Assembly: GCF_004341515.1 (NCBI RefSeq)
Contig: NZ_SLZF01000008.1
Span: 248,001-312,000, forward strand
DNA from: Allobosea sp. BK604
Lineage (GTDB): Bacteria; Pseudomonadota; Alphaproteobacteria; Rhizobiales; Beijerinckiaceae
DNA: 64,000 nt
Direction of reading: 5' to 3'
Shown here one piece after another: positions 2,362-22,397 of the stretch (its first letter is position 1; each line of letters opens with the position of its first letter). The notes under the pieces are model-generated. The model did not search any database. It saw only the letters and a list, made by a program, of their open reading frames with translations, and was not told where the DNA came from. A program made the position numbers and the translations under genes.

Positions 2362-2378
2362 TGGCATAATGTATGCCA
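2362..2378. promoter_or_regulatory. operator dyad TGGCAT-N5-ATGCCA at the sucCD-like promoter
   Basis: Perfect inverted repeat TGGCAT-aatgt-ATGCCA, 46 bases before the start of the SucC-like gene. A TATAAA at 2381-2386 is a good -10 candidate, and TTTCTG (2358-2363) sits 17 bases upstream as a weak -35, so the dyad would fill the promoter spacer, as expected for a repressor site. The same dyad occurs at 5524, 18141 and 22282. Which regulator binds it is inferred; the two GntR proteins in the window are the best candidates. Confidence 0.72.
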
Positions 2379-2423
2379 ATTATAAAACGATGCCGCTCAC
2401 GGCACGATCAGAGGGAGCGAACC

Positions 2424-3593
2424 ATGAAGATCCATGAGTTCCAGGCGAAGCAGTTGCTGGCCCCCTACGGGCTGCAGGTGCCGGAGGGCGGCGTCGCGAT
2501 CACCGCGCCGGAAGCCGGCGACATAGCGCGGCGCCTGGGCGGGCCGGTGGTGGTCAAGGCCCAGATCCAGGCCGGTGGCCGCCAGAAGGCCGGCGGCGTG
2601 CATCAGGTCGATGCCGCGGAGGCGGCGGAAAGCGTCGCCGGGCGGCTGCTCGGGCGCAAGCTGGTGACAGCGCAGACCGGTCGTAACGGCGAGATGGTCA
2701 AGCGCCTCCTGATCGAGACCGCGATCGCGGCGAAGCGCGAACTGCACCTTGCCCTGCTGGTCGATTCCTCGTCCGGCGAACTGATGCTGATCGGCAGCGC
2801 CAAGGGCGGCGCCGATATCGAGGAGCAGGCAGCACGCGGCGAGATCAAGGTGAATCAGCTCAGGCTCGGCGCCGGAAGCGAGCCGCGGAAGCAGGAGATC
2901 GCCCGGTTCCTCTCCGAGCTCGGGCTGGACGGCGCCCTGCAGGAGCAGGGCTGCGCGCTGGTCGACGGCCTGCGACGGGCCTTCCTCGAGCTCGATGCCA
3001 GCCTGATCGAGATCAACCCGCTGGCGGTCACGGAGCAGGGCGGCCTGGTCGCGCTCGACGTCAAGATGATGCTCGACGACAACGCGATGTTCCGCCACCC
3101 CGACCTCGCGGCGCTGCGCGAAGAGGACGAGGCCAGCGCCGCCGAATTGCAGGCGCAGCGCCACCAGCTCAACTATGTCCAGCTCGATGGCGATATCGGC
3201 CTGGTGGCGAACGGGGCGGGGCTCGGCCTCGCGACGCTCGACATGGTCGTCGCCGCCAAGGGTCGGCCTGCCAATTTCATGGATATCCGCACCACCGCCA
3301 AGAGCCTCGACATCGCCCAGGGCTTCCGGCTCCTGCTCGACAATCCGGCGACCAAGGCGCTCCTGATCAATGTCCATGGCGGCGGCATGCAGCCTTGCGA
3401 CACGATCGCCGAGGGGCTCGGAGTCGCCATGCGGCGCAGCGGCCGCAAACTGCCCCTGGTGGTGCGCCTCGCCGGCAACAATGCGGATTTCGCCCGCTCT
3501 CGCTTCAAGAATTTCGGCTGCGAGATCGTCGATTGCCCGGACATGTGGAGCGCGGCCTCGACCGCCGTCGCCATCGCAGCGAAAGGAGCCTGA
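2424..3593 (+). CDS. SucC/MtkA-like ATP-grasp beta subunit of an ADP/GDP-forming acid-CoA ligase
   Basis: The 389-residue protein starts MKIHEFQAKQLL after a GAGGGAGCGAACC leader and has the two-part SucC architecture: an N-terminal ATP-grasp fold (GGRQKAGGV near residue 50, EINPLAVTEQGG near 196, then DDNAMFRHPD) and a C-terminal ligase domain. Such subunits join a dicarboxylate to CoA with an NTP. It differs from the ordinary SucC at 14496-15692: the substrate/phosphate loop near residue 316 reads NVHGGGMQPCD, against [10 protein letters not shown] in the other copy, so one residue is inserted and several are changed. Malate (MtkA), oxalate or another C2-C4 acid are possible substrates; no malyl-CoA lyase is seen nearby. 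It pairs with the next gene, 3 bases downstream. Confidence 0.8.
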   Translation: MKIHEFQAKQLLAPYGLQVPEGGVAITAPEAGDIARRLGGPVVVKAQIQAGGRQKAGGVHQVDAAEAAESVAGRLLGRKLVTAQTGRNGEMVKRLLIETAIAAKRELHLALLVDSSSGELMLIGSAKGGADIEEQAARGEIKVNQLRLGAGSEPRKQEIARFLSELGLDGALQEQGCALVDGLRRAFLELDASLIEINPLAVTEQGGLVALDVKMMLDDNAMFRHPDLAALREEDEASAAELQAQRHQLNYVQLDGDIGLVANGAGLGLATLDMVVAAKGRPANFMDIRTTAKSLDIAQGFRLLLDNPATKALLINVHGGGMQPCDTIAEGLGVAMRRSGRKLPLVVRLAGNNADFARSRFKNFGCEIVDCPDMWSAASTAVAIAAKGA

Positions 3594-3596
3594 GCC

Positions 3597-4478
3597 ATGG
3601 CCGTCTTCCTCGATCGCGACACGCGCGTCGTCTGCCAGGGCATGACCGGCTGGGCCGGCACCCACCATGTGGCGCGCATGATGGAATATGGCACGCAGGT
3701 CGTCGGCGGCGTCACGCCTGGCAAGGGCGGGCGTTCGCATCTGAACTTGCCGGTCTATGACAAGGTCGCGCAATCGCGGCGCGAGACCGGCGCCAATGCC
3801 AGCATCGTCTTCGTCCCGCCTGCCAATGCCGCCGCTGCCATGCTGGAGGCGATCGAAGCGGAGATGCCGCTCGTCGTCACCGTCACAGAGCGGGTGCCGA
3901 CGCTCGACATGGTCAGGGTCAAGGATGCGCTCAAGGGCTCGCGCACCACGCTGGTCGGGGCCAATTCGCAGGGCGTCCTGGTGCCCGGCATCGGCAAGCT
4001 CGGCGTGATGGCGACCGGCAGCGAGCGGCCGGGCGGGATCGGCATCGTCTCGCGCTCGGCCTCGCTCACCAGTGAGGTCGTGGCGCAGATCACGGCCGTC
4101 GGCCTCGGCCAGTCGACCACCGTCGGGGTCGGCGGCGACCCGATCCACGGCATCGGCATGCGTGACTGTCTCGACCTGCTGCTCAAGGATGCCGATACCG
4201 AGGGCGTGGTCCTGATCGGCGAGATCGGCGGGACCGAAGAGGAGGAGGTCGCGGACTATATTGCCGGGCTGAAGCCCTCCAAGCCGATCGTCGCGCTGAT
4301 CGTCGGTCGCGAGGCGCCGCCCGAGCGGCGCATGGGCCATGCCGGCGCGCTGACATTGGGTGGACGCGGCGATGCCGCGAGCAAGATCAAGGCGCTGGAG
4401 GCGGCCGGCGTGCGCATCGCGCCGAGCGCGCATCTGGTCGGCGAGACGATCCGGCAGGCGCTGGCGGACCGGGATTAG
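3597..4478 (+). CDS. SucD/MtkB-like CoA-binding alpha subunit, divergent active site
   Basis: 293 residues with an N-terminal CoA-binding Rossmann domain and a C-terminal ligase domain that carries the phosphohistidine (H248 in [10 protein letters not shown]). It should form the alpha half of the CoA ligase with the gene just upstream. The loop that normally reads GPNCPG (with the CoA-contacting cysteine) reads GANSQG at residues 121-126, losing both prolines and the cysteine; the other SucD in this window keeps GPNCPG. This points to a changed substrate rather than a second housekeeping succinyl-CoA synthetase. The annotation of malate-CoA ligase is possible but not shown by the sequence. 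Confidence 0.8.
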   Translation: MAVFLDRDTRVVCQGMTGWAGTHHVARMMEYGTQVVGGVTPGKGGRSHLNLPVYDKVAQSRRETGANASIVFVPPANAAAAMLEAIEAEMPLVVTVTERVPTLDMVRVKDALKGSRTTLVGANSQGVLVPGIGKLGVMATGSERPGGIGIVSRSASLTSEVVAQITAVGLGQSTTVGVGGDPIHGIGMRDCLDLLLKDADTEGVVLIGEIGGTEEEEVADYIAGLKPSKPIVALIVGREAPPERRMGHAGALTLGGRGDAASKIKALEAAGVRIAPSAHLVGETIRQALADRD

Positions 4479-4503
4479 CCTCGTTGAGAAGGGAGGGCGC
4501 TCC

Positions 4504-5334
4504 TCAATCCCGCTTCGGCAGACGGCCGCCGATGGAGGCGGTGATCTCGTCGGCGGCCCGGCGCACCAGCGGGCCGAACTCGTCGAGCTTGCGCGCGGTG
4601 ATGCGCACGCTCGGTCCCGAGGTCGAGACGGCGGCGATCGCCTCGCCATGCTCGTTGAAGATCGGCGCGGCGACGCAGCGCATCCCAAGTGTGCGCTCCT
4701 CGTCGTCGAGGGCCCAGCCGCGCCGGCGGCTCTCGTCGAGCTCGCGCATCAGCAGGGCGAACTCCGTGCGGGTCTTTTCGGTGAAGCGCTCGAGCCGGCG
4801 CATGCCGCAGATCTGGCGCACGCGGTGCTCGGGCAATTCGGCGAGCAGCGCCTTGCCGACGCCGGATGCATGCATGGCGCCGCGGCTGCCGGCCCGGAAG
4901 AAGGCACGTAAGGTGTCATGGCTCTCGACCTGCGAGATGAAGACGACCTCGCCATCGTCCTCGATGCCGAGATTGACGGTCTCGCCGGTCTTTTCCATCA
5001 GGTCGCGCATGGTGAGGCGGCCCATGCTGGCGATGCGGCGGTTGCGCAGGAAGGCCGAGCCGATCTTGAAGGTCTCGACCCCGATCAGCCAGGAGCCGCG
5101 CTCGATCTCGTGCAGCACGAAGCCGCGGCTCTCCAGCGTCAGCAGGAGGCGGTGCACCGTCGAGACGGAAAAGCCGGATTTGCGGGCGAGGTCCGTCAGC
5201 GTCAGGCCGTCCTCCTCAGCCAGCATGGCAAGGAGGGACAGGCCGCGGTCGAGCGCCTGGACCGAGCCGCCGGTCATCGCCGCCTTCAGCGAGCGCGGGC
5301 GGCCGCGGGTCTTGCGTTGATCTGTCAGGGTCAT
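4504..5334 (-). CDS. IclR-family transcriptional regulator
   Basis: 276 residues from the ATG at 5334 (MTLTDQRKTRGRPRSL). A winged helix-turn-helix (LTDLARKSGFSVSTVHRLL, residues about 45-65) is followed by the IclR effector domain with the typical MHASGVGKALLAELP segment and a C-terminal APIFNEHGEAIAAVSTSGP stretch. A longer frame adds 27 residues (MFWKIISVLIG...) that read through AT-rich promoter DNA and are not family-like. It is transcribed away from gcl across an AT-rich gap of about 235 bases. In enterobacteria the IclR protein AllR represses gcl and senses glyoxylate; a similar local role is likely here but inferred from position. Confidence 0.9.
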   Translation of the reverse strand: MTLTDQRKTRGRPRSLKAAMTGGSVQALDRGLSLLAMLAEEDGLTLTDLARKSGFSVSTVHRLLLTLESRGFVLHEIERGSWLIGVETFKIGSAFLRNRRIASMGRLTMRDLMEKTGETVNLGIEDDGEVVFISQVESHDTLRAFFRAGSRGAMHASGVGKALLAELPEHRVRQICGMRRLERFTEKTRTEFALLMRELDESRRRGWALDDEERTLGMRCVAAPIFNEHGEAIAAVSTSGPSVRITARKLDEFGPLVRRAADEITASIGGRLPKRD

Positions 5335-5569
5335 GGCCGGGCTCCGTTCATCGGCTCCAGGAAAGCACGTCCTGGGATAAGAGCCAATTAGAACTGAAAT
5401 TATTTTCCAAAACACCCAATCCGTGATTTCTGGAATAAATATATCTCATTGATTTATATTGATATTTCTATTTTCAATTAGCTGCGAAAAAACATTCTGA
5501 AAAAAATTGACGCCACGGCGCTTTTGGCATCTGGTATGCCAATCGAGCATCTCTTCAGGAGGCTGCGCC
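5335..5569. promoter_or_regulatory. AT-rich divergent promoter region between iclR and gcl
   Basis: 235 non-coding bases much richer in A+T than their surroundings. GAAA-TTA-TTTC around 5396-5406 and ATTTCTGGAATAAAT around 5429-5443 are dyad-like and resemble the AT-rich boxes bound by IclR proteins, but neither is a perfect repeat. TTGACG at 5507-5512 is a -35 candidate for gcl; a convincing -10 is not visible because the operator dyad at 5524-5542 covers that place. Expected function: iclR autoregulation and gcl control. Confidence 0.5.
5524..5542. promoter_or_regulatory. operator dyad TTGGCAT-N5-ATGCCAA at the gcl promoter
   Basis: Perfect 7-base inverted repeat TTGGCAT-ctggt-ATGCCAA, ending 27 bases before the gcl start and lying 11 bases after the TTGACG box at 5507. 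It is the longest perfect member of the four-site family. Its position across the expected -10 or early transcript suits a repressor. Confidence 0.75.
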
Positions 5570-7342
5570 ATGGCGAAGATGAGGGCCGTCGAGGCCGCTG
5601 TCAGGGTTCTGGAACGCGAGGGCGTCACGCAAGCCTTCGGGGTGCCGGGCGCGGCGATCAATCCGCTCTATGCGGCGCTGAAGAGCCGGCAAAGCATCGA
5701 CCATATCCTGGCACGCCATGTCGAGGGCGCCTCACATATGGCCGAGGGCTATACCAGGGCCAAGGCCGGCAATATCGGCGTCTGCATCGGCACATCCGGA
5801 CCCGCCGGCACCGACATGATCACCGGCCTCTATTCGGCCATCGCCGATTCGATCCCGATCCTCTGCATCACCGGCCAGGCGCCGCGGGCGCGGCTCTACA
5901 AGGAGGATTTCCAGGCGGTCGATATCGAGGCGATCGCGAAGCCGGTGACCAAATGGGCGGTGACCGTGCGCGAGCCGGCGCTGGTGCCGCGCGTCTTCCA
6001 GCAGGCCTTCCACCTGATGCGCTCGGGCCGGCCTGGCCCGGTACTGATCGACCTGCCGGTCGATGTCCAGATGGCCGAGATCGAATTCGACGACGAGACC
6101 TATGAGCCGCTGCCGGTCTACAAGCCCGCAGCCTCGCGCCGCCAGATCGAGAAGGCGATGGCGATGCTGGACGCGGCCGAGCGGCCGCTGATCGTCGCCG
6201 GCGGCGGCGTCATCAATGCCGATGCCTCCGAGCTCCTGGTCGAGTTCGCCGAGCTGACCGGGGTCCCGGTCGTGCCGACCCTGATGGGCTGGGGCGCGAT
6301 TCCAGACGACCATCCCCTGATGGCCGGCATGGTCGGCCTACAGACGAGCCATCGCTACGGCAATGCGACGATGCTCGCCTCCGACTTCGTCATCGGCATT
6401 GGCAATCGCTGGGCCAACCGCCACACAGGCTCGATCGAGACCTACACCAAGGGCCGCACGTTCGTTCACGTCGATATCGAGCCGACACAGATCGGCCGTG
6501 TCTTCAATCCGGATTACGGCATCGTCTCGGACGCCAAGGCGGCGCTCGAGCTCTTCGTCGACGTGGCGCGCGAGCGGGAGGGCAAGGGGCTGCTGAAGAA
6601 CCGCAGCGACTGGGCCCAGGATTGCCGCGAGCGGCGCGCGACCATGCTTCGCAAGAGCCATTTCGACAACGTGCCGCTGAAGCCGCAGCGGGTCTATGAG
6701 GAGATGAACGAGGCCTTCGGCCGCGACACCTGCTACATCTCGACCATCGGGCTGTCGCAGATCGCCGGGGCGCAGTTCCTGCGTGTCTATAATCCGCGCA
6801 ACTGGATCAATTGCGGCCAGGCCGGCCCGCTCGGCTGGACGCTGCCGGCGGCGCTCGGCGTGCGCGCCGCCGATCCCGAGCGCGAGATCGTCGCGCTCTC
6901 CGGCGATTACGACTTCCAGTTCCTGATCGAGGAGCTCGCGGTCGGGGCGCAGTTCAAGCTGCCCTACATCCATGTCGTCGTGAACAATTCCTATCTCGGC
7001 CTGATCCGCCAGGCGCAGCGCGGCTTCGACATGGATTTCCAGGTCCAGCTCGCCTTCGACAACATCAATGCGCCCGATCTCGCCGGTTATGGCGTCGACC
7101 ATGTCGCGGTCGCCGAAGGGCTCGGCTGCAAGGCGATCCGGGTGAAGAGCCCGAACGAGTTCAAGGCCGCCTTCGCCCAGGCCAAGGCCTGGCTCAAGGA
7201 GCATCAGGTTCCGGTGGTGATGGAGTTCATCCTGGAGCGCGTCACCAACATCGCGATGGGCACCGAGATCGACAATATCGTCGAGTTCGAGGAGGTGCTC
7301 GACCTGCCTCTGCCCGAGCCCGTGCTGCAGCCGGCCCAATAA
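5570..7342 (+). CDS. gcl: glyoxylate carboligase (tartronate-semialdehyde synthase)
   Basis: 590 residues, start [17 protein letters not shown] behind a clear AGGAGG. A three-domain thiamine diphosphate enzyme that joins two glyoxylates to tartronate semialdehyde plus CO2. Decisive is V51 (RHVEGASH), the valine that replaces the usual catalytic glutamate only in Gcl; the C-terminal ThDP/Mg motif GDYDFQF...NNSYLGL is near residues 443-473. Length equals the Escherichia coli enzyme (about 593). It heads an apparent operon gcl-hyi-glxR-panE-like-pyk-FAH with gaps of 19-63 bases, and its promoter carries the shared operator. Confidence 0.96.
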
Positions 7343-7375
7343 TCCCGATCATCAGCGCCACCAGGGGAGAGACCC

Positions 7376-8161
7376 ATGCCTCGTTTCGCCGCCAACCTGA
7401 CGATGCTGTTCAACGAGCTGCCCTTCCTGGAACGCTTCCAGGCGGCAGCGGAATGCGGCTTCCGCGGCGTCGAGTACCTGTTCCCCTACGAGCACGACAA
7501 ATACGAGCTGGCCGGGCGTATGAAGCGCTGGAACCTGACGCAGGTGCTGCACAACCTGCCGGCGGGCGACTGGGCCAAGGGCGAGCGCGGGATCGCGATC
7601 CTGCCGGACCGGGTGAGCGAGTTCCAGCGCGGCGTGTTCCAGGCGATCGACTATGCCACCATGCTCGGCTGCAAGCAGGTGAACTGCCTCGTCGGCATCG
7701 CGCCGAAAGGGAGCGATCCCGCCAGGCTGCACGAGACGCTGGTCAACAACCTGCGCTTCGCCGCCCATGAGCTGAACCAGGAGGGCATCGCGCTCCTGGT
7801 CGAGCCGATCAACACCCGCGACATCCCCGGCTTCTTCCTCAACACGACGAAGCAGGCGCTTGACCTGCTCGATGATGTCGAGTCGCCAAACCTCTTCATC
7901 CAGTACGACATCTACCACATGCAGATCATGGAGGGGGATCTGGCCCGCACGATCGAGGCCAATCTCGACAAGATCGGCCATATCCAGCTCGCCGACAATC
8001 CCGGCCGCAACGAGCCCGGCACCGGCGAGATCAACTTCCCGTTCCTCTACCGGCATCTCGACGCCATCGGCTACGGTGGCTGGGTCGGCTGCGAATACAA
8101 GCCCGCCCGCAGCACCCGCGACGGCCTGATCTGGCTGCCGGGGCACCCTTTGGCTGCGTGA
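7376..8161 (+). CDS. hyi: hydroxypyruvate isomerase
   Basis: 261 residues; a xylose-isomerase-like TIM barrel that interconverts hydroxypyruvate and tartronate semialdehyde. The two catalytic/metal glutamates are at E143 (LLVEPINTRD) and E240 (VGCEYKPA), exactly where they fall in the E. coli enzyme. Start at 7376 follows CAGGGGAGAGACCC. It lies 33 bases after gcl and 50 before glxR, the classical glycerate-pathway order. Confidence 0.95.
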   Translation: MPRFAANLTMLFNELPFLERFQAAAECGFRGVEYLFPYEHDKYELAGRMKRWNLTQVLHNLPAGDWAKGERGIAILPDRVSEFQRGVFQAIDYATMLGCKQVNCLVGIAPKGSDPARLHETLVNNLRFAAHELNQEGIALLVEPINTRDIPGFFLNTTKQALDLLDDVESPNLFIQYDIYHMQIMEGDLARTIEANLDKIGHIQLADNPGRNEPGTGEINFPFLYRHLDAIGYGGWVGCEYKPARSTRDGLIWLPGHPLAA

Positions 8162-8211
8162 CGGGCAGACGGACGGTCGACGTTCTCAAGTCGAACGGAG
8201 GATAAGCGACT

Positions 8212-9102
8212 ATGGCGAATATCGGCTTCATCGGGCTCGGCATCATGGGCCGCCCAATGGCGGAACATCTGATCACGGGCGGCCATACGCTGCACGTCTC
8301 GAGCCATCACAAGGCGCCGGATGCGGAGCTGCAGGCGAAGGCGGTCACGGTCCACCCGACGCCGAAGGCGGTCGCGGCGGCGAGCGAGATCGTCATCCTG
8401 ATGCTGCCGGATACGCCGCAGGTGGAGGAGGTGCTGTTCGGCACCAATGGCGTCGCGCTCGGTCTCAGCAAGGGCAGCATCGTCGTCGACATGAGCTCGA
8501 TCTCGCCGATGGCGACGAAGGAGTTCGCCAGGAAGATCGAGGCCCAGGGGAGCCAGTATCTCGACGCGCCGGTCTCCGGCGGCGAGGTCGGCGCCAAGGC
8601 GGCGAGCCTGACCATCATGGTCGGCGGGCCGCAGGAGGCGTTCGACAAGGTCAAGCCGCTCTTCGAGCTGATGGGCAAGAACATCACGCTGGTCGGCGGC
8701 AATGGCGACGGCCAGACCACCAAGGTCGCCAACCAGATCATCGTGGCGCTGACCATCGAGGCGGTCGCCGAGGCGCTGCTCTTCGCCTCCAAGGCGGGAG
8801 CGGACCCCGCCAAGGTGCGCCAGGCGCTGATGGGCGGCTTCGCCTCCTCGAAGATCCTCGAGATCCACGGCGAGCGCATGGTCAAGCGCACCTTCAATCC
8901 GGGCTTCCGCATCGGGCTGCACCAAAAGGACCTCAACCTCGCGCTGCAGAGCGCCCGGTCGATCGGCGTGTCGCTGCCGAACACGGCAACCGCGCAGGAA
9001 CTGTTCAACGCCTGCGTCGCCCATGGCGGCAAGGACTGGGATCACTCGGCCATGGTGCGGGCGCTGGAGATCATGGCGAACCACCAGGTCGCGAGTTCAT
9101 AA
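8212..9102 (+). CDS. glxR: 2-hydroxy-3-oxopropionate (tartronate semialdehyde) reductase
   Basis: 296 residues of the beta-hydroxyacid dehydrogenase family. GFIGLGIMGRPMA at residues 5-17 is the dinucleotide-binding loop, DAPVSGGEVGA near 118-128 the substrate loop, and K171 (TTKVANQ) the catalytic lysine. It reduces tartronate semialdehyde to D-glycerate with NAD(P)H. Part of the gcl operon, directly followed (19 bases) by the PanE-like gene. Confidence 0.94.
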   Translation: MANIGFIGLGIMGRPMAEHLITGGHTLHVSSHHKAPDAELQAKAVTVHPTPKAVAAASEIVILMLPDTPQVEEVLFGTNGVALGLSKGSIVVDMSSISPMATKEFARKIEAQGSQYLDAPVSGGEVGAKAASLTIMVGGPQEAFDKVKPLFELMGKNITLVGGNGDGQTTKVANQIIVALTIEAVAEALLFASKAGADPAKVRQALMGGFASSKILEIHGERMVKRTFNPGFRIGLHQKDLNLALQSARSIGVSLPNTATAQELFNACVAHGGKDWDHSAMVRALEIMANHQVASS

Positions 9103-9121
9103 GAGCAAGAAAGGAAGGCCC

Positions 9122-10150
9122 ATGAAGATCTGCATCTACGGCGCCGGAGCGATCGGCGGCTATATGGGTGTGATGCTCAAGCGCGGCGGGCTCGATGTCT
9201 CGCTGGTCGCGCGCGGCGCCCATCTCGACGCGATCAAATCCAGGGGCCTCACCCTCGTCACCAAGACCGAGACGATCACCGAGCATATGCCGGCGAGCCG
9301 GGATCCGCGCGATCTCGGCCGCCAGGACGTGGTGATCATCGCGCTCAAGGCGCATCAGGCCTGGGAATCGGCCGAGGATCTGAAGCCGCTGCTCGGGCCG
9401 CAGACCGCGGTCGTCACCGCCCAGAACGGCGTGCCCTGGTGGTATTTCCACGGGCTGGAAGGGCCGCATGCCGATCTGCGCCTGCGCAGCGTCGACCCCG
9501 GCGACCGGCAGTGGAACGCGATCGGCCCCGAGCGCGTCATCGGCTGCACGGTCTATCCGGCGACGGAGATCACCGAGCCCGGCGTGATCAAGCATATCTA
9601 TGGCGACCAGTTCGGGCTCGGCGAGCCCAATCGCCAGGAAAGCGCGCGGCTGGCGCGTTTCGCCGACGCGATCGCCGCCGGCGGGATGAAGCCGCGCGTG
9701 TTCACCGATATCCGCGACGACATCTGGCTGAAGCTTTGGGGCAATCTCTGCTTCAATCCGATCTCGGCCTTGACCCATGCGACGCTCGATATCGTCGCGA
9801 CGGAGCCGGGCACCCGGGCGCTTGCCCGCAACATGATGCTGGAGGCACAGGAGATCGGCGAGACGCTCGGCGCGCGCTTCCGTGTCGATGTCGACCGCCG
9901 CATCGACGGGGCGGCCGGCGTCGGCGCCCATCGCACCTCGATGCTGCAGGACCTGGACAAGGGCCGGCCGCTGGAAATCGACGCACTGCTAACCGCCGTC
10001 CAGGAAATGGGCCGGCTGGTCGGGGTTCACACTCCCTATATCGACGCCGTGCTAGGGCTCGTGCAGCAGATGGGGCGTGCGAAGGGCGTCTACCCAACCT
10101 TCCCGGAGCAGGTCTCCGTGGTGGACGATCGCCAGTTGGTCGCCTCATGA
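9122..10150 (+). CDS. PanE/ApbA-family reductase, candidate oxalyl-CoA reductase
   Basis: 342 residues from ATG 9122, behind AAGGAAGGCCC. The N-terminal Rossmann motif is IYGAGAIGGYMG (residues 5-16), and the C-terminal ketopantoate-reductase-type helical domain has the catalytic lysine at about K204 (DDIWLKLWGNLCFNP). Nominally 2-dehydropantoate 2-reductase, but the NGVPWWYFHG loop (102-111) and an insertion before WNAIGPERVIG distinguish it from biosynthetic PanE. In Methylobacterium extorquens a PanE paralogue (panE2) is the oxalyl-CoA reductase that makes glyoxylate. Its place inside a gcl operon, in the same cluster as frc and oxc, supports that role here. It sits where a glycerate kinase gene is often found. 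Family call firm; substrate inferred. Confidence 0.85.
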   Translation: MKICIYGAGAIGGYMGVMLKRGGLDVSLVARGAHLDAIKSRGLTLVTKTETITEHMPASRDPRDLGRQDVVIIALKAHQAWESAEDLKPLLGPQTAVVTAQNGVPWWYFHGLEGPHADLRLRSVDPGDRQWNAIGPERVIGCTVYPATEITEPGVIKHIYGDQFGLGEPNRQESARLARFADAIAAGGMKPRVFTDIRDDIWLKLWGNLCFNPISALTHATLDIVATEPGTRALARNMMLEAQEIGETLGARFRVDVDRRIDGAAGVGAHRTSMLQDLDKGRPLEIDALLTAVQEMGRLVGVHTPYIDAVLGLVQQMGRAKGVYPTFPEQVSVVDDRQLVAS

Positions 10151-10213
10151 TGCGAGAGCCGGTAGGGTCGGCGCGGATTCGCGCCGCCCGAGCCAAAGCA
10201 TTGTGAGGATACC

Positions 10214-11626: not shown

Positions 11627-11670
11627 GGCCACCAGCCTCCGCACGCCGCCGCCAGAGAGGGAGAGAGACA

Positions 11671-12492: not shown

Positions 12493-12503
12493 CTTGCCCT
12501 AAC

Positions 12504-12595: not shown

Positions 12596-12601
12596 GGAGC
12601 C

Positions 12602-13554: not shown

Positions 13555-14484
13555 TCAGAACGACCATTCGATCTCGGCGCAGCGCTTCTGCACCGCGGGC
13601 TCGCCATTGAGCAGTTCGACCAGCGTCTTGCCGAGCCGGGCAGGCGAGGGCGAGACGCGGATGCCGGCCGCTTCCATGGCGGCGATCTTGTCTTCCGCGC
13701 CGCCCTTGCCGCCGGAGATGATGGCGCCGGCATGGCCCATGCGGCGGCCGGGAGGGGCCGTGCGGCCGGCGATGAAGCCGACCATCGGCTTGGAGCGGCC
13801 GCGCTTGGCTTCGTCCCTGAGGAATTGCGCAGCGTCCTCCTCGGCCGAGCCGCCGATCTCGCCGATCATCACGATCGACTCGGTCTTCGGATCGGCAAGG
13901 AAAAGCTCGAGCACCTCGATGAATTCGGTGCCCTTGACCGGATCGCCGCCGATGCCGACCGCTGTAGTCTGGCCGAGTCCCTCGCGCGTGGTCTGGAACA
14001 CCGCCTCATAGGTCAGCGTGCCCGAGCGCGAGACGATGCCGACCGACCCCCGCTTGAAGATATTGGCCGGCATGATGCCGATCTTGGCTTCGCCCGCGGT
14101 GACGATACCCGGGCAGTTCGGCCCGACGAGGCGCGATTTCGAGCCCGAGAGCATGCGCTTGACCTTGACCATGTCCATCACCGGGATGCCTTCGGTGATG
14201 CAGACGATCAGCGGGATCTCGGCCTGGATCGCCTCGCAGATCGCATCCGCCGCGCCCGGAGGCGGCACGTAGACGACGGAGGCATCGGCGCCGGTCTTGT
14301 CGCGGGCTTCCGCGACCGTGTTGAAGACCGGCAGGTTGAGATGGGTCTGGCCGCCCTTGCCGGGCGCGACGCCGCCGACCATGCGGGTGCCGTAGGCGAT
14401 GGCCTGCTCGGAATGGAAGGTGCCGTTCTTGCCGGTGAAGCCCTGGCAGATGACCTTGGTGTTCTTGTCGATCATGATAGCCAT
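13555..14484 (-). CDS. sucD: succinyl-CoA synthetase alpha subunit type
   Basis: 309 residues from ATG 14484 ([15 protein letters not shown], with GAGGGGG upstream), 11 bases after the sucC stop. Canonical SucD: CoA loop GPNCPG at residues 121-126 and phosphohistidine H251 ([10 protein letters not shown]), with glutamate in IGEIGGS near 209. With SucC it interconverts succinate plus CoA and succinyl-CoA with NTP. The usual TCA neighbours (mdh, sucA, sucB) are absent; instead it closes the acyl-CoA ligase operon next to frc/oxc. It may supply succinyl-CoA as CoA donor for oxalate, or have shifted substrate while keeping the motifs. Confidence 0.92.
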
Positions 14485-14495
14485 GGTTGTCCCCC

Positions 14496-15692
14496 TCAAC
14501 CCTTGCGCACGGCGGCGACGATCTTCTGGGCGGCGTCATCGAGGTCGTCGGCCGGGATGACGTTCAGGCCCGAGGAGCGGATAATCTCCTTGCCTTCTTC
14601 GACATTGGTGCCTTCGAGCCGCACAACGAGCGGCACTTCGAGGCCGACCGTCTTCACCGCGGCGATGACGCCACGCGCGATGACGTCGCATTTCATGATG
14701 CCGCCGAAGATGTTGACGAGGATGCCCTTCACGTTCGGATCGGCGGTGATGATCTTGAAGGCGGCGGTGACCTTTTCCTCACTCGCTCCGCCGCCGACAT
14801 CGAGGAAGTTCGCCGGCGATTCCCCGTAGAGCTTGATGATGTCGAGCGTCGCCATGGCGAGGCCGGCGCCGTTGACCATGCAACCGATCGTGCCGTCGAG
14901 CGCGATATAGGCGAGGTCGTATTTGGACGCCTCGATCTCCTTGGCATCCTCCTCGGTCTCGTCGCGCAGCTTGAAGACGTCCGGGTGGCGATAAAGAGCG
15001 TTGTCGTCGAAGGAGATCTTGGCGTCGAGGCAGCGCAGCTTGCCGTCCTTGGTGACGATCAGCGGGTTGATCTCCAGCATCGCCATGTCCTTGGCGACGA
15101 AGGCGGCATAGAGCTTGTTGGTCAGGTCCTCGGCCTGCTTGGCGAGGTCGCCGCTGAGATGCAGCGCCTCCGCCACCGTCCGGCCGTGCAGCGGCATGAT
15201 GCCGGTCGCGGGATCGACCGAGAAGGTCTTGATCTTCTCCGGCGTGTCGTGGGCGACATCCTCGATATTCATGCCGCCTTCTGTGGAGACGACAAACGAG
15301 ATCCGCGAAGTCTCGCGGTCGACCAGCATCGACAAGTAGAATTCCTTGTCGATCAGCGAACCGTCCTCGATGTAGAGCCGGTTGACCTGCTTGCCGGCCG
15401 GGCCGGTCTGCACGGTGACGAGGGTATGGCCGAGCATCTGATGGACGAAAGCCTTGGCCTCGTCGATCGACTTCGCCAGGCGCACGCCGCCCTTTTCGCC
15501 GGCTTCGGGCTCCTTGAAGGTGCCCTTTCCGCGGCCGCCGGCATGGATCTGCGACTTCACCACCCAGACCGGGCCACGCAACTGCCTGGCGGCGGCTTCG
15601 GCATCTTCGGCCGTGAGCACGGGGTAGCCGTCGGGGACCGGCACGCCGAATTCCCGGAGCAGCCCCTTCGCCTGATATTCATGAATGTTCAT
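14496..15692 (-). CDS. sucC: succinyl-CoA synthetase beta subunit type
   Basis: 398 residues starting [15 protein letters not shown]-grasp domain with [16 protein letters not shown] near residue 50, [14 protein letters not shown] near 205 and [11 protein letters not shown] near 225; C-terminal ligase domain with [11 protein letters not shown] and [13 protein letters not shown]. All landmark segments look like ordinary alphaproteobacterial SucC, unlike the diverged copy at 2424-3593. It is followed by sucD and preceded, after 190 bases with two hairpins, by the fused CoA ligase. Confidence 0.93.
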
Positions 15693-15882
15693 TGCGATCT
15701 CTCTCGGAGTTCAGGGAGAGCGACCGGGGCCTTTCCGCGGCGCCGGCCATTCGGAAATAGAAGCCTGGATATTGGACAGGGCTGCCTCCCTCCCGCCGGG
15801 GGAGGGAGAAGCGACCGCGCGCTGCGCGGGGGCCGACGACGCGGGACGGAGTCCGGGCGTCGTCGGAGTCGGGTGGTTGCGC
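15693..15882. other. 190-base intercistronic spacer with two hairpins
   Basis: No gene. Two stable dyads are visible: CTCCCTCCC / GGGAGGGAG (15786-15808, 5-base loop) and CCGACGACGC / GCGTCGTCGG (15833-15866). They lie between the fused CoA ligase and sucC on the same strand and could partly end or process the transcript, so that the two parts are expressed at different levels. Confidence 0.55.
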
Positions 15883-18054
15883 TCAGCCCTTGATCAGGCC
15901 GGCGGCACGCGCCCACTTGTACTTGGCGCCGAGCACCTCGACGGGCGTCTCCGTGGTGTACGGATAGGCCACGATGCCGTGGTCGTAGAGCTTCTCGCAG
16001 GCCTTCTCGACCTCGACATCGCCGACGAGCGAGGCGACGATCGGCTTGTCGATGCCCTTGGCGCGCGCCTCGGTGACGACCTCGATCATCTTGTCGGCGA
16101 AGACCAGCGGCGGCGTCACGATCGTGTGCCAGTAGCCGAGGATGAGCGCGTGGATGCGCTCGTCGTTGAGGCCGAGGCGGACCGTGTTCTGGTAGGTCAG
16201 CGGCGGCTCGCCGCCGGTGATGTCGACCGGATTGCCGGCCGCGCCGAAGGGCGGGATGAACTTGCGGAAGGCCGCGTCGAGATCCTCCGGCATCTTCATC
16301 AGGGTGAGGCCGTTGTCGAAGCAGGCGTCGGAAAGCAGCACGCCCGAGCCGCCGGCGCCGGTGATGATGACGACGTTCTCGCCCTTGGGGGCAGGCAGGA
16401 CCTGCACGCCGCGGGCATATTCGAGCATGCCACGCAGCGAGGGGGCGCGGATGACGCCCGAGGCCTTGAGGATGTCGTCATAGATCTTGTCGTTGCCGGC
16501 GAGCGCGCCGGTATGGGAGGCAGCGGCCTTGGCGCCATAGGCGGTGCGGCCGGCCTTGAGCACGATCACCGGCTTCTTCTTCGAGACGCGCTCGGCGACC
16601 TCGGAGAAGGCGCGGCCGTCCTTCAGGTCCTCGCAATGCATCGCGATCACCGAGGTGTTCGGATCCTGCTCGAAGAAGGTCAGCAGATCGTCCTCGTCGA
16701 GGTCCGACTTGTTGCCGAGGCCGACGATCGAGGAGACGCCCATCTTGGTCGAGCGGGCGAAGCCGATGATCGACATGCCGACGCCGCCGGACTGCGAGGA
16801 GAGGGCCGCCTTGCCCTTGACGTCGAAGGCCGTGCAGAAGGTCGCGCAGAGATTTTCCGGCGTATAGTAGAAGCCGTAGATGTTCGGCCCCATGATGCGG
16901 ACATTGTGCTTGCGGGCAGTGGCGAGCAGCTCCTCCTGCAGCTCCGGCTCGCCGGACTCGGCGAAGCCCGAGGGGATCATCACGGCGCCGGGAACACCCT
17001 TGCGGCCGACTTCGTCCATGGCGCCGTTGCAGAGCTTGGCCGGCACGGCAAAGACCGCGACATCGACCACACCGTCATAGTCGAGGATCGACTTATAGGC
17101 CTTGATGCCCTCGATCGTGTCGGCCTTCGGGTGCACCGGAACGATCGTGCCCTTGTAGCCGCCATTGATCAGGTTCTTCATCACCGAGTTGCCGATCTTG
17201 CCGGCTTCGTTCGAGGCGCCGATCACCGCCACCGCCTTGGGGTGGAAGATGCGGTTCATCGCCGTGACGATCGCGTCCTGATCCGGGCGGAAGCGCTCCT
17301 TGCGCGCCTCGAAATTGCAGACGATACGGGCATCGACCGCGGTCGCGGCCGATTTGGTGGCGAAGACCGGGTTGAGGTCGAGTTCCTCGATCTCCGGGAA
17401 ATCGTCGAGCAGGGCCGAGACCTGGACGAGGATCGCGGCGAGCGCCTTGCGGTTGACGGGATCGCCGCCGCGCACGCCATCGAGCATCTCCTTGGCCTTG
17501 ATCGAGCCGATCATGTCGAGCGCCTGGGCTTCGTTCACCGGCGCGAGACGGAAGGTCAGGTCCTTGAGAACCTCGACCAGGACGCCGCCGAGGCCGAAGG
17601 CGACGAGCTTGCCGAAGGACGGGTCGGTGATCGCGCCGACCAGCGTCTCGGTCGCGCCCGAGGGCAGCATCTGCTGGACCTGGATGCCCTCGACCTTGGC
17701 ATCAGCCTTGTACTTCTTGGCGTTTGCCAGGATCGTGTCATGGGCGGAGCGCGCCTCGGCGTCGCTCTTCACGCCAACGATGACGCCACCGGCATCGGTC
17801 TTGTGCAGGATATCGGCGGAGACGATCTTCATTACCACCGGGTAGCCCATGCCGGAGGCGAGCTTCACCGCCTCGTCGGCGGATTTGGCCAGGCCTTCCT
17901 TCGGCAGGGGAATGTCGTAGGCATCGCAGACCAGCTTGGCCTCCGGTGCCGTCAGGCCGGTGCGGCCATCGGCCTTCACGCCGTCGAGAACTTTGCGTAC
18001 CGTCGCCTTGTCGGCTTCGCGCTGATCGATTTTCAGGGCTGCTTGCTGCACCAT
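15883..18054 (-). CDS. fused NDP-forming acyl-CoA synthetase (acetate--CoA ligase family)
   Basis: 723 residues from ATG 18054 (MVQQAALKIDQREADK, GGGAGG upstream). An N-terminal ATP-grasp (SucC-like) half comes first, roughly residues 20-240, then a CoA-binding domain (HPKAVAVIGASNEAGKIG near 270), a succinyl-CoA-ligase-like flavodoxin domain (SSQSGGVGMS) and the phosphohistidine H514 (AAASHTGALAG). Such one-chain enzymes couple acyl-CoA to ATP synthesis, or the reverse, with acetate, formate-like or other small acids. Context (operator upstream, frc-oxc next door) suggests a small acid from oxalate metabolism, such as oxalate or formate; that is inferred. The longer frame upstream of 18054 runs through the operator and is not coding. 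Confidence 0.9.
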   Translation of the reverse strand: MVQQAALKIDQREADKATVRKVLDGVKADGRTGLTAPEAKLVCDAYDIPLPKEGLAKSADEAVKLASGMGYPVVMKIVSADILHKTDAGGVIVGVKSDAEARSAHDTILANAKKYKADAKVEGIQVQQMLPSGATETLVGAITDPSFGKLVAFGLGGVLVEVLKDLTFRLAPVNEAQALDMIGSIKAKEMLDGVRGGDPVNRKALAAILVQVSALLDDFPEIEELDLNPVFATKSAATAVDARIVCNFEARKERFRPDQDAIVTAMNRIFHPKAVAVIGASNEAGKIGNSVMKNLINGGYKGTIVPVHPKADTIEGIKAYKSILDYDGVVDVAVFAVPAKLCNGAMDEVGRKGVPGAVMIPSGFAESGEPELQEELLATARKHNVRIMGPNIYGFYYTPENLCATFCTAFDVKGKAALSSQSGGVGMSIIGFARSTKMGVSSIVGLGNKSDLDEDDLLTFFEQDPNTSVIAMHCEDLKDGRAFSEVAERVSKKKPVIVLKAGRTAYGAKAAASHTGALAGNDKIYDDILKASGVIRAPSLRGMLEYARGVQVLPAPKGENVVIITGAGGSGVLLSDACFDNGLTLMKMPEDLDAAFRKFIPPFGAAGNPVDITGGEPPLTYQNTVRLGLNDERIHALILGYWHTIVTPPLVFADKMIEVVTEARAKGIDKPIVASLVGDVEVEKACEKLYDHGIVAYPYTTETPVEVLGAKYKWARAAGLIKG

Positions 18055-18140: not shown

Positions 18141-18159
18141 TTGGCATTTGGCATGCCAA
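18141..18159. promoter_or_regulatory. operator dyad TTGGCAT-N5-ATGCCAA upstream of the fused CoA ligase
   Basis: Perfect repeat TTGGCAT-ttggc-ATGCCAA, 87 bases before the CoA-ligase start on the minus strand. A TTGACA at 18170-18175 (read on the minus strand) is a good -35 box; the dyad begins 10 bases after it and would cover the -10 position, as at gcl. No good TATAAT is visible. Confidence 0.75.
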
Positions 18160-18324: not shown

Positions 18325-18364
18325 AAGTCGCTCTCGAGGAGGTCGAGGAGCGGTCGGGAAACGG

Positions 18365-19639
18365 TTACTCGGCTGCAGCTCGCGTCACCGCGCCGGTCGC
18401 GCCGGATTCGGTGATCGAGGCGATGCGGGCTTCGTCGAATTTCAGCACGTCGCGCAGCACCTCTTCGGTGTGCTCGCCAAGCAGGGGCGAGCGCTTCACC
18501 TCGGTCGGGCTGTTCGACAGCTTGATCGGATTTCCGACGGAGAGGTACTTGCCGCGGGTCGGATGATCGACCTCGACGACCGTGCCGGTGTCACGCAACG
18601 ACTTCTCCTCGGCGATCTCCTTCATGGACAGGATCGGCCCGCAGGGGATGTCGTACTCGTTGAGAAGGTCCATGGCCTCGAACTTGGTCTTGGTCATGGT
18701 CCATTGCTCGATCCGCCCGAAGATCTCGTTCAGGCGCGGCAGGCGGGCCGGCGGCTTGGCGTAGTTCGGGTCGGTCTTCCAGGTTGGCTCGCCGATGACG
18801 TCGCAGATCTTCTCCCAGACCGGGGCCTGGGTGATGAAGTAGATATAAGCGTTGGGATCGGTCTCCCAGCCCTTGCACTTCAGGATGCGGCCGGGCTGGC
18901 CGCCGCCGGAATCGTTGCCGGCGCGCGGCACGGCATCGCCGAAGGGCAGGCCCTCGCCGAACTGGCTGTATTCCTTGAGCGGCCCGTGATCGAGGCGCTG
19001 CTGGTCGCGCAGCTTGACGCGGCAGAGGTTGAGCACGCCGTCCTGCATCGCGCAGTCGACCTTCTGGCCGAGGCCGGAATGGGTGCGGTGATAGAGCGCC
19101 GTGACGATGCCGAGCGCGAGGTGCAGGCCGGTGCCGGAATCGCCGATCTGGGCACCGGTGACGAGCGGCAAGCCATCGCGGAAGCCGGTGGTCGAGGCGG
19201 CGCCGCCGGCGCATTGCGCGACGTTCTCGTAGACCTTGCAATCCTCGTAGGGGCCGGGGCCGAAGCCCTTGACCGAGGCGACGATCAGCCGGGGATTGGT
19301 GGCGTGGATCTTCTCCCAGGTCAGGCCCATGCGGTCGAGCACGCCCGGCGCGAAATTCTCGACGAGAACGTCGCAGATCTTCACCATCTCCCAGAGCACT
19401 TCCATGCCCTTGGGGTTCTTGGTGTCGAGCGTGATCGAGCGCTTGTTGTGGTTCAGCATCGTGAAATAGAGGCTGTCCGCATCCGGCACGTCGCAGAGCT
19501 GGCCGCGCGTGATGTCGCCGGTGCCGGGACGCTCGACCTTGATCACGTCGGCGCCGAACCAGGCGAGAAGCTGCGTGCAGGTCGGCCCCGACTGGACATG
19601 GGTGAAATCGAGAATCTTGACGCCTTCGAGCGCTTTCAT
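18365..19639 (-). CDS. frc: formyl-CoA:oxalate CoA-transferase
   Basis: 424 residues of the class III CoA-transferase (CaiB/BaiF) family. N-terminus [20 protein letters not shown], with Q16 in the CoA site; the aspartate that forms the acyl-anhydride intermediate is D167 ([10 protein letters not shown]); [12 protein letters not shown] follows near 205. Length matches Oxalobacter Frc (428). It transfers CoA from formyl-CoA (or succinyl-CoA in related enzymes) to oxalate. It lies 14 bases after oxc on the same strand, a diagnostic pairing. Start ATG 19639 follows GGGAG. Confidence 0.95.
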
Positions 19640-19653
19640 TTTTGAATACTCCC

Positions 19654-21390
19654 TTATTTCTTCTTGAGTGCGCTTTGCGGATTCAGATTGCCGATGCGGC
19701 CGCTTTCGCTGCCGGCGGTCGGGTCGATCACCGCGTTGATCAGGGTCGGCTTGCCGGAATCCATGGCGGCATCGACCGCGCGCTTGAGCTCGTCCGGGGT
19801 CGTCACGTTGACGCCGACGCCGCCGAAAGCCTCCATCATCTTGTCGTAGCGCGAGTCCTTGACGAAGACGGTCGTGCCCGGGTCGCGGCCGTTCGGATCG
19901 GTGTCGGTGCCGCGGTAGATGCCGTTATTGTTGAAGATGACGATGCAGACCGGCAGCTCGTACCGGCAGATCGTCTCGACCTCCATGCCGGAGAAGCCGA
20001 AGGCAGAATCGCCTTCCACAGCGAGGACCGGCTTTCCGGTCTCGATCGCGGCGGCGATCGCGAAGCCCATGCCGATGCCCATCACGCCCCAGGTGCCGAC
20101 ATCCAGGCGCTTGCGCGGCTGGTACATGTCGATGATGCCGCGGGCGAGGTCGAGCGTGTTGGCGCCCTCGTTGACCAGGATCGCGTCCGGACGCTCCTTG
20201 ATGACCGTGCGCAGGGCACCGAGCGCGCCATGGAAATCCATCGGGGCCGAGTTCTTCATCAGCCGCGGCGCCATCTTGGCGATGTTCTCGTCACGCTTGG
20301 TGGTGACGGTGGAGATCCAGTCCGCCGGCGGCTTCGACCAGCTGCCGCCCATGCCGTCGAGCAGAGCATCGACGCAGGAGCCGATATCGCCGACCACGGG
20401 GGCGACGATCTCGACATTCGAGTCCATTTCCTTGGGCTCGATATCGATCTGGATGAACTGCTTCGGCGCGTCGCCCCAGGTCTTGCCCTTGCCGTGCGAG
20501 AGCAGCCAGTTGAGCCGGGCGCCGATCAGCATGACGACGTCGGAATCCTTCAGCACGGTCGAGCGCGCTGCGCCGGCCGATTGCGGATGGGTATCGGGCA
20601 GGAGGCCCTTGGCCATGCTCATCGGCAGGAAGGGAACGCCGCTCTTTTCGACCAGCGCGCGGATCGCGTCATCGGCCTGGGCATAGGCCGCGCCCTTGCC
20701 GAGGATGATCAGCGGGCGCTTGGCGCCCTTGAGCACGTCGAGCGCTCGCTTGATCGCTGAAGGGGCGGGGATCTGAGCAGGTGCAGCATCGATAACCTTG
20801 ACCAGCGACTTCTCGCCGGCCTCGGCATCCATCACCTGGCCGAACAGCTTGGCCGGCAGATCGAGATAGACGCCGCCGGGGCGGCCGGAGACGGCGGCGC
20901 GTATCGCGCGGGCGACACCGATGCCGATATCGGCGGCGTGCAGCACGCGGAAGGCGGCCTTGCACAGCGGTTTCGCAATCGCGAGCTGATCCATCTCCTC
21001 ATAGTCGCCCTGCTGCAGGTCGACGATCTCGCGCTCGGACGAGCCGGAGATCAGGATCATCGGGAAGCAGTTGGTCGTGGCGTTCGCCAGAGCGGTCAGG
21101 CCGTTGAGGAAGCCGGGCGCCGAGACCGTCAGGCAGATGCCCGGCTGCTTGCTCAGGAAGCCGGCGATCGCGGCGGCGTTGCCGGCATTCTGCTCATGCC
21201 GGAACGAAATGACGCGGATGCCCTCGGCCTGGGCCATGCGGCCGAAATCCGTGATCGGGATGCCGGGGACGCCATAAATCGTCTCCACGCCGTTGAGCTT
21301 GAGCGCGTCGATGATCAGATGGAAGCCGTCGGTCAGCTCGCGTTCAGTCTCGGGGGCATTCGAAGCTATGCTTTGTACAACTGCGGACAT
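19654..21390 (-). CDS. oxc: oxalyl-CoA decarboxylase
   Basis: 578 residues; a thiamine diphosphate enzyme that converts oxalyl-CoA to formyl-CoA and CO2. Catalytic E66 ([12 protein letters not shown]) in the N-terminal domain; ThDP/Mg motif [14 protein letters not shown]...NNNGIYRG near residues 460-500; [11 protein letters not shown] just before it. N-terminal [17 protein letters not shown] and a length near 568 fit the family. With frc it forms the formyl-CoA/oxalyl-CoA cycle of oxalate breakdown. It follows the GntR gene after 54 bases and is probably co-transcribed from the 22.2 kb promoter region. Confidence 0.96.
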
Positions 21391-21444
21391 ACCGCTTTCT
21401 CCCTAGCGTTGTTTCTTGTTTGTCGCGTCGTTTCTTGTTCTTGC

Positions 21445-22131
21445 TCAGTCGAGCTGAACGAACTGCTCGACGTGATCCCTGAGCTTGAGCGTGTGCTCGC
21501 GCACGAGCCGCTCGGCGCGTTCGCCGTTGCGCGCTTCCAGCGCCTCGACGATTTCCTTGTGGTCGATGATCGAGCGGCGGGCGCGATCCTTCTCGAAGAT
21601 CGTGCGCTGGCGGATCGCCCTGACATGGGTGAAGAGGCCGCTGGTGATGTCGCCGATCAGCTTGCAGCCCGAGAGCGAGATGATCGCGGCATGGAAGCGG
21701 ATATTGGCGTCGGAATACTCGCCCATATGCGCATCGATATCGGCGCTGTCGAATGTGTCGACGAGCCCGTGCAGGCCGGCGATCTGACTGTCTGAGGCGA
21801 CCTGCGTCACCAGGCGCGCCGCCATGCTCTCGAGCGCGGCCCAGACCGTGATCATCTCGAGGATCTCGGCCTTGGTCTTGCGCACGATATAGATGCCGCG
21901 GCGCGGCGCGATCCGAACCAGGCCTTCCTGCTCGAGCTGTGCGAGGGCTTCGCGCAGCGGCGTGCGGCTGACGCCGAACTGCAGCGACAGCGCGCGCTCG
22001 TCGAGTCTGAGCTCGGCGCCGGCGTCATAGATCTTCATCGTGCCGATCGCCGCTTTCAGAGCATCATAAGTGCGGCTCTTGAGGCTCTGCACCTCTTCGA
22101 TCGGTTGGATGTCTAAGCGCGCTCTGGCCAT
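21445..22131 (-). CDS. GntR-family (FCD domain) regulator of the oxalate genes
   Basis: 228 residues: winged helix (ERALSLQFGVSRTPLREALAQL, residues about 45-66) followed by an FCD domain with metal-ligand histidines (IRFHAAIIS, IIDHKEIVEAL, REHTLKL). Paralogue of the GntR protein at 12602-13327. It is the first gene of the gntR-oxc-frc operon and diverges from tctA across a 266-base region with one full and one partial operator, the arrangement expected of a local, self-regulating repressor. The effector could be oxalyl-CoA, oxalate or glyoxylate; not visible from sequence. Confidence 0.93.
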   Translation of the reverse strand: MARARLDIQPIEEVQSLKSRTYDALKAAIGTMKIYDAGAELRLDERALSLQFGVSRTPLREALAQLEQEGLVRIAPRRGIYIVRKTKAEILEMITVWAALESMAARLVTQVASDSQIAGLHGLVDTFDSADIDAHMGEYSDANIRFHAAIISLSGCKLIGDITSGLFTHVRAIRQRTIFEKDRARRSIIDHKEIVEALEARNGERAERLVREHTLKLRDHVEQFVQLD

Positions 22132-22397
22132 CGCGAGCCCGGGTCCCCTGCCTTGTGTTTTGGCCGCATGAGCGCATTATAAGAATCTCATGCGGTGGTT
22201 TCTGGCATACCATATAATGAAAGAAACGGCACGCGCAATGCCCTATTTGCTGCAATAAAATTGCTGCAACGCAGCCATAAATGGCATATTGCATGCCAGT
22301 AAGTTTCATCCTAGGCTAGTTCGAATAAGGCCAGTCGGTTCCGCGTCTCGGTCATTGCGCGGTCCCAGAACCCGGCTAATTTTGGGGATGAAGCGCT
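22132..22397. promoter_or_regulatory. divergent promoter region of gntR-oxc-frc and tctA-tctC-tctB
   Basis: 266 non-coding bases with an AT-rich centre. Toward gntR, TTGCGC and TATATG with about 16 bases between are a possible promoter; just after it lies TGGTATGCCA (22203-22212 on the other strand, TGGCATACCA), a near-palindromic relative of the operator core. The full operator is at 22282-22298. Toward tctA no convincing -10/-35 pair was found by eye. Confidence 0.55.
22282..22298. promoter_or_regulatory. operator dyad TGGCAT-N5-ATGCCA between gntR and tctA
   Basis: Perfect repeat TGGCAT-attgc-ATGCCA, 100 bases before tctA and 151 before gntR. Fourth member of the family; all four fit TGGCAT-NNKGY-ATGCCA. 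Confidence 0.74.

Follow-up and report, generated by a model that had tools for sequence, protein, structure and literature searches.

Results

This work concerns a short repeated DNA element in a 64,000-nt stretch of the Allobosea sp. BK604 genome (NCBI RefSeq assembly GCF_004341515.1, contig NZ_SLZF01000008.1, positions 248,001 to 312,000 of the forward strand), which is called the window throughout. The element, TGGCAT-N5-ATGCCA, stands before genes for oxalate, glyoxylate and formate metabolism and is treated here as a predicted operator. Two GntR/FCD proteins, GntR1 and GntR2, are encoded in the window, and an IclR/BhcR-family protein makes a third candidate regulator. The features referred to below, numbered from the first letter of the window, are the following (CoA, coenzyme A; promoter elements and the acsF start at 18054 were read by eye, and other genes were named where stated from profile models).

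2362-2378, plus strand: predicted operator before the sucCD-like pair, TGGCATAATGTATGCCA, exact match
2424-4478, plus strand: sucCD-like CoA ligase pair (2424-3593 and 3597-4478), from profile models
4504-5415, minus strand: IclR-family regulator, divergent from gcl, above the cut-off of the BhcR model
5507-5512, plus strand: TTGACG, probable -35 element of gcl
5525-5541, plus strand: predicted operator before gcl, TGGCATCTGGTATGCCA, exact match
5570-12492, plus strand: gcl, hyi, glxR, a panE-like gene, pyruvate kinase and a FAH-family gene
12602-13327, minus strand: GntR1, the GntR/FCD regulator that ends the acsF-sucCD-gntR1 row
13555-18054, minus strand: sucD, sucC and the fused ADP-forming CoA ligase acsF
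18142-18158, no strand assigned: predicted operator before acsF, TGGCATGCCAAATGCCA on the gene strand, 11 bases past TTGACA (18175-18170)
18365-21390, minus strand: frc (formyl-CoA transferase) and oxc (oxalyl-CoA decarboxylase), both above model cut-off
21445-22131, minus strand: GntR2, the GntR/FCD regulator in front of oxc-frc
22196-22212, no strand assigned: second predicted operator, on the gntR2 side, TGGTTTCTGGCATACCA, three-half-site form
22282-22298, no strand assigned: predicted operator before tctA, TGGCATATTGCATGCCA, exact match
22398-25709, plus strand: tripartite transporter, tctA (22398-23912), tctC (24054-25076) and tctB (25197-25709)

A first-pass annotation made from the sequence alone had described four perfect inverted repeats, and all four were recovered as exact matches to TGGCATNNKGYATGCCA, at 2362-2378, 5525-5541, 18142-18158 and 22282-22298, with no further exact match in the window; the limits 5524-5542 and 18141-18159 given earlier denote the same sites with one extra flanking pair. 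As had been stated, the half-sites are 5 bases apart and the fourth spacer base on the plus strand is G in all four, and TTGAC boxes are present as TTGACG at gcl and as TTGACA on the minus strand at the fused CoA ligase. The asymmetric spacer points against the gene at the fused CoA ligase (minus strand), so that the orientation of the site relative to the gene is not fixed. None of 100 dinucleotide shuffles of the window reached four matches (mean 0.00), and a chance origin of the four sites is excluded. The partial relative noticed at 22203 is also real, and was refined to a fuller site, TGGTTTCTGGCATACCA at 22196-22212; this has 3 mismatches to the dyad, yet matches exactly the three-half-site form TGGYNTNKGGYATRCCA described below.

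Across the 7.63-Mb genome the exact pattern TGGCAT-N5-ATGCCA occurs 6 times and its reversed form not once. When C/T and A/G were allowed at one base per half (TGGYAT-N5-ATRCCA), 8 copies were found, 4 of them in the window. Two others lie 72 bases apart (C1:556269 and C1:556341) before an oxalate/formate antiporter gene, one (C1:795613) precedes a second antiporter gene 86% identical to the first, and one (C2:186853) precedes a formate dehydrogenase operon. Both antiporters pass TIGR04259 (643-656 bits, cut-off 335); the dehydrogenase operon starts with a NuoE/NuoF-like fusion gene, and its second gene passes the formate dehydrogenase alpha model (734 against 666 bits). Oxalate, glyoxylate or formate genes therefore stand behind 8/8 sites, which are not spread over unrelated DNA. 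The regulon of four units proposed at first is thereby kept and extended by two antiporter genes and the formate dehydrogenase elsewhere in the genome. Beyond the formate dehydrogenase operator (L044, contig C2, ~5356-6767) lie two more genes, one DctP-like and of TRAP type by visual reading, the other a third GntR gene, GntR3, which shares only ~26-28% identity with GntR1 and GntR2 and was set aside.

Conservation was examined in 61 genomes attributed to Bosea, 13 of which hold full-length GntR2 together with GntR1 (in G355 the GntR2 gene is truncated by the end of its contig). These 13 genomes contain 66 sites (4-9 each), against 17 in the 48 others (0-2 each). Of the 66, annotation puts 50 next to oxalate, glyoxylate or formate genes, 12 were placed by contig position only and 4 (in G324) are unlisted. 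In the annotated relatives the sites stand at the promoters of tctA/gntR2, gcl/iclR, a sucC-like gene, acsF, formate dehydrogenase and the antiporter; relatives that lack acsF have the site at the sucC/sucD row instead, and in three genomes (G007, G024 and G346) acsF and the dehydrogenase are transcribed away from each other, with two sites in the space that separates them. In G332 all 9 sites accompany genes of oxalate, glyoxylate or formate metabolism, and the loosest stands 0.8 kb before an frc paralogue. At this locus (L209, contig C7, 5943-10504) a second frc, 64% identical and above cut-off, is accompanied by an oxalate/formate antiporter gene; three operator copies lie nearby, one ~0.8 kb before frc and two before the antiporter.

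Alignment of promoters from related genomes showed that the site is kept at orthologous positions: the site, and TTGAC at gcl and acsF, are retained while the surrounding DNA has mostly diverged. AATTGAC is invariant among the 13 Bosea gcl promoters, the core of the 2362 site is almost unchanging across 9 aligned Bosea promoters, and TGGTTTCTGGCATACCATATAA at the gntR2-side operator is unchanged in all 13 genomes. The gcl promoter carries the site (at most one mismatch) in 13/13 Bosea genomes with the GntR genes and in 0/4 that have gcl without them. One antiporter row of the alignment (L094) has no site before the gene; this gene follows tctB on the same strand and may use its promoter. L138 contributed no row to that alignment. 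In the named genome collection 14 loci were matched; 12 show 87-94% identity, and 7 of these 12 bear the name Bosea.

The outer halves of the dyad proved real, and its structure was refined from a single dyad to three half-sites. Among 59 places picked on the outer halves alone, blind to the spacer (at most one mismatch, several per region and some overlapping), 50 contained an inner half-site (spacer KGY), where ~14% was expected. KGY followed by AT makes a further TGGYAT half-site, inverted to the right-hand half and overlapping it. The operator thus consists of H1 (TGGYNT), H2 (TGGYAT) 7 bp on, and H3 (ATRCCA), which shares two bases with H2; the full form TGGYNT-N-TGGYATRCCA is a 10-bp palindrome, TGGYATRCCA, plus a third, tandem copy, and its outer pair is the dyad originally described. 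The part kept most strictly in other families is H2-H3, TGGTATACCA, and H1 often reads TGGTGT. The Bosea sites hold H1 and H3 strictly and vary more in H2, which is why the element looked like a dyad with five spacer bases, one of them always G. Two sites of the genome studied, both before antiporter genes, lack the KGY spacer (TGGCATTATGAATGCCA and TGGTATCTGTGATGCCA), and a third exception, TGGTATATGTTATGCCA, has T where G is expected. Column counts from sites chosen by the three-half-site pattern are inflated, and the spacer-blind test was relied on; a reversed-sequence control of this form was discarded in favour of dinucleotide shuffles because a reversed near-palindrome still yields a related motif. 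When both strands of the genome were searched with the three-half-site form at one mismatch, 13 places were found, of which 6 were sites already known.

Beyond the genus, a search for GntR2 homologues (E <= 1e-50) listed 96 places, spread over 79 of 297 genomes of the order. Sixty stretches were hand-picked from these for spread, and all 67 of their GntR genes were used in the upstream analysis. The best upstream site had no mismatch in 19 of the 67 regions, at most one in 44 and at most two in 52; the corresponding shuffle means were 0.01, 0.27 (maximum 2) and 2.98. Outside the order and in the same class, the site was present at 2/2 loci of family f60 and at 0/1 of f66. In f109, outside the class, 2/5 loci have a related shifted sequence at one mismatch and 3/5 have none. 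These shifted sequences, TGGTATATCACATACTA and TGGTATGTGATATATCA, lie near GntR genes of the same phylum (L257 at 3552 and L258 at 2316), which suggests that operator and regulator have changed in step in another class.

At two promoters the site lies a short way downstream of a TTGAC box. TTGACG at gcl ends at 5512 and the site begins at 5525, 12 bases downstream; for acsF, read on the minus strand, the last base of TTGACA is 18170 and the first base of the site is 18158, 11 bases downstream. With this spacing the -10 element should fall inside the site. TTGTCT at 2344-2349 is a possible -35 of the sucCD-like pair, whose -10 the 2362 site probably covers. At tctA the inner TTGCAT (22289) is followed exactly 17 bases on by TAGGCT, a possible promoter, and the formate dehydrogenase has TTGCAT with TAGAAT at the same distance, so that at these two genes the -35 would fall within the site. 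The overlap with probable promoter elements makes a repressor operator the most likely function of the site.

Discussion

We judge it very likely, at a probability of about 0.85, that a GntR/FCD family governing oxalate use, represented here by two paralogues that would act as repressors, has this element as its operator. This shared sign very probably marks one coordinated oxalate-use programme. The first-pass annotation had assigned the site to one of the two GntR/FCD proteins; the family assignment is supported, as sites track GntR genes better than the IclR gene, and both paralogues may bind. GntR1 and GntR2 are 52% identical, and both score above the gathering threshold for the GntR winged helix (PF00392) and FCD (PF07729). 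In the DNA-reading head E45, R46, S55, R56, T57, P58, R60, R77 and G79 are invariant across all 85 aligned members of both clades, after 2 of 87 rows (one long-branch match and GntR3) were dropped. In the FCD domain N143, H147, H191 and H213 are found in all 33 GntR1-like rows and in 50-52 of the 52 GntR2-like rows, and R174 is also conserved. The GntR1 clade stands apart in the tree from the remainder, which includes GntR2 (branch 100/100; bootstrap not settled). Members of both groups adjoin oxc-frc with the same site, and the predicted operator is present at the promoter of gntR itself. In two f20 genomes both GntR matches belong to the GntR1 clade and sites stand at acsF, fdsB and gntR, with an additional site at an oxlT-like gene in one of them (G231); in many further genomes there is just one match, of GntR2-like type (E <= 1e-50). 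Binding by both paralogues is suggested because the helix-turn-helix residues are common to them and because genomes with one clade keep the site. It is safest to say that the reader of the site is the GntR/FCD family and that in Bosea both copies may read it.

Several observations weigh against this interpretation. Fifteen of the 67 gntR upstream regions have no site within two mismatches; some of these genes sit inside same-strand gene rows, which does not explain them all. Of 30 gcl genes inspected in genomes of the order, only 6 have the site. Of the 24 without it, 12 are in GntR-bearing genomes spanning five genera (g41, g71, g115, g10 and g122), 9 are in genomes without such a GntR and 3 are second gcl copies; gcl appears to be a regulon member in certain lineages only. 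Within Bosea, GntR1, GntR2, the IclR gene and the metabolic genes move as one cluster, so that co-occurrence in this genus cannot tell them apart. The genome also has 24 one-mismatch sites, gene context having been followed for two, both upstream of antiporters, and at two mismatches the motif gives 358 hits against 88 for its reversed form, mostly composition background. Lastly, the promoter elements were identified by eye, and their assignment is weaker at fdsB and tctA, where activation is possible.

Other functions for the site and other readers were weighed against these data. The -24/-12 element of sigma-54 promoters has GG-N10-GC spacing, which TGGCAT-N5-ATGC matches and which can be read in all four window sequences. 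A sigma-54 promoter is nevertheless scarcely credible: the combination of GG and GC is not conserved in homologous promoters, where forms such as TGGTGTATGGTATACCA and TGGTATACC have no GC at the -12 place, and the site is symmetric with a third half-site, follows a conserved TTGAC at gcl and acsF, and tracks the GntR gene. It is also improbable that the regulator acts as an activator rather than a repressor. Activation by GntR-family regulators does occur in related pathways, GlcC being described as an activator of glcDEF (PMC11323563), but at gcl and acsF the conserved TTGAC hexamer puts the site at the expected -10, where a bound protein should block polymerase.

Among readers, the BhcR-like protein divergent from gcl has several points in its favour. 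IclR operators are palindromes of similar length, the gene adjoins the gcl site, and a close relative (at least 72% identical) beside gcl is always accompanied by the site, in the 13 Bosea genomes, G231 and G318. BhcR itself binds its own divergent promoter in a glyoxylate-sensitive manner by gel shift (PMC11323563). Against this, the site does not occur wherever an IclR-gcl pair stands: it is missing from 7/7 genomes of genus g67 with an IclR homologue (50-52%) beside gcl and no GntR match (best 3-5 mismatches), from Bosea G321 with a 46% homologue, and from gcl in four genomes with both GntR and an IclR homologue (44-56%) beside it. Conversely, genus g55 has an exact gcl site in 3/3 genomes with no IclR gene within the 1.5-kb flank, and the site stands at gntR-oxc in many loci whose stretch contains no IclR gene. 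The IclR proteins of the negative cases have only about half of their residues in common with the one in the window and may differ in specificity, and no search was made for IclR genes at other places in these genomes; even so, we regard the IclR protein as a very unlikely reader. That one paralogue, most simply GntR2, reads all sites while the other has a different operator is a more serious proposition, if still an unlikely one. The gntR2-side operator lies within a 23-base block invariant in 13 Bosea genomes, and the GntR1 gene, last in the acsF row, has no site directly before it in the window or in five annotated relatives. However, the helix-turn-helix contact positions are identical in both clades, and genomes with GntR1-clade genes alone retain sites at the acsF, fdsB and gntR promoters. 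A tentative elaboration of the two-paralogue reading is that GntR1 and GntR2, with the same DNA-reading head, share every operator and perhaps answer different intermediates, mixed or competing dimers on the three-half-site operators integrating two signals. GntR2 is encoded with oxc-frc and GntR1 with the CoA ligases, in separate transcription units. If true, the inputs might be, for example, oxalate supply and glyoxylate or CoA-ester overflow.

The nearest studied analogue that we found for the operator word and for multi-site binding is NanR of Escherichia coli, a GntR/FCD repressor of sialic acid genes that recognises (GGTATA)3 and requires a 32-residue N-terminal extension for cooperation (PMC8012715). 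Both are FCD-type GntR proteins, the half-site T-GGTAT-A contains the same word, each operator has more than two half-sites, and uptake and catabolism are joined in one regulon. The NanR model is the second best NCBIfam match of GntR2, but GntR2 and GntR1 score 75.4 and 61.7 bits, below its curated cut-off of 260, and the pathway is different. Furthermore, two half-sites here are inverted and overlapping with the third in tandem at a 7-bp step, and the GntR domain starts at residue 19 in GntR2 and 30 in GntR1, too early for the extension described for NanR, for GntR2 at least. The FCD metal/ligand pattern (D or N)-x3-H, H, H is present, its role being carried over from NanR (PMC8012715), and the conserved residues fit a metal-bound carboxylate ligand, as in NanR. 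GntR2 would thus work partly like NanR without being NanR; by sequence the nearest solved chain is 7xp0, a 'Probable transcriptional regulator', and NanR (6on4) is a weak match. GlcR of Paracoccus denitrificans, a GntR-family repressor of glycolate oxidase (PMC11323563), resembles the predicted repressor in acting on a neighbouring C2 acid in an alphaproteobacterium; the gene set and the ligand (glycolate) differ. BhcR from the same organism is of IclR type, another protein family; a relative is encoded beside gcl in the window, and distant homologues occur beside gcl without the site. The part of frc, oxc and the antiporter OxlT in oxalate use has been described (PMC12927642), and genes of all three types are under the site here; the terms regulator and GntR are absent from the main text of that paper.

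Taken together, we propose that a dimer would very probably bind the palindrome TGGYATRCCA and that a second dimer may occupy the third half-site. Without inducer the bound regulator would cover the -10 at gcl, acsF and the sucCD-like pair, or the -35 at tctA and formate dehydrogenase, and so block transcription. An oxalate-derived ligand in the FCD pocket would then free the DNA, oxalate or a product of oxalate being the natural guess. One signal would thereby open uptake (TctABC and the antiporters), activation and decarboxylation (CoA ligases and frc-oxc), reduction and assimilation (the panE-like gene and gcl-hyi-glxR) and formate oxidation. The sites, their conservation, their three-part form and their co-occurrence with GntR genes are computed results, from which we infer binding, repression, the two dimers, the effector and binding by both paralogues.

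Some genes of the window deserve mention in their own right. Pfam TctA, TctB and TctC were matched in the 22398-25709 genes. The pair at 2424-4478 passes the succinate--CoA ligase models PRK00696 and PRK05678; it does not pass the malate--CoA ligase model, the beta subunit scoring 334 bits against a cut-off of 604. This pair, the second sucCD-like pair (within 13555-18054) and the fused ADP-forming CoA ligase share one operator type and are candidates for oxalate-, formate- or glyoxylate-linked activity. Within the gcl row, 9023-10150 encodes a PanE-like protein of the ketopantoate-reductase family. From pathway logic it is a possible candidate for an oxalyl-CoA reductase, an activity described for panE2 (PMC12686821). 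A GC-rich inverted repeat at 12503-12597 (ccgtcattgcgaggag... / ...ctcgcaatgacgg), between two convergent genes, looks like a dispersed palindromic repeat or a terminator.

Conclusions

Word searches of the literature found no paper linking a GntR protein to oxc-frc; most subscription papers lay outside these searches and an earlier report is possible. In PMC8305402 GntR and oxc-frc words both occur, unconnected. What we describe would be a new regulon of a well-known kind of regulator, its two-paralogue, three-half-site design being the most unusual part. Bacteria that degrade oxalate are important in the cycling of soil carbon and minerals, and the analysis yields a testable regulator family, operator and gene list. 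The site may also serve as a signature for spotting oxalate-use genes in other genomes, CoA ligases as yet unnamed included.

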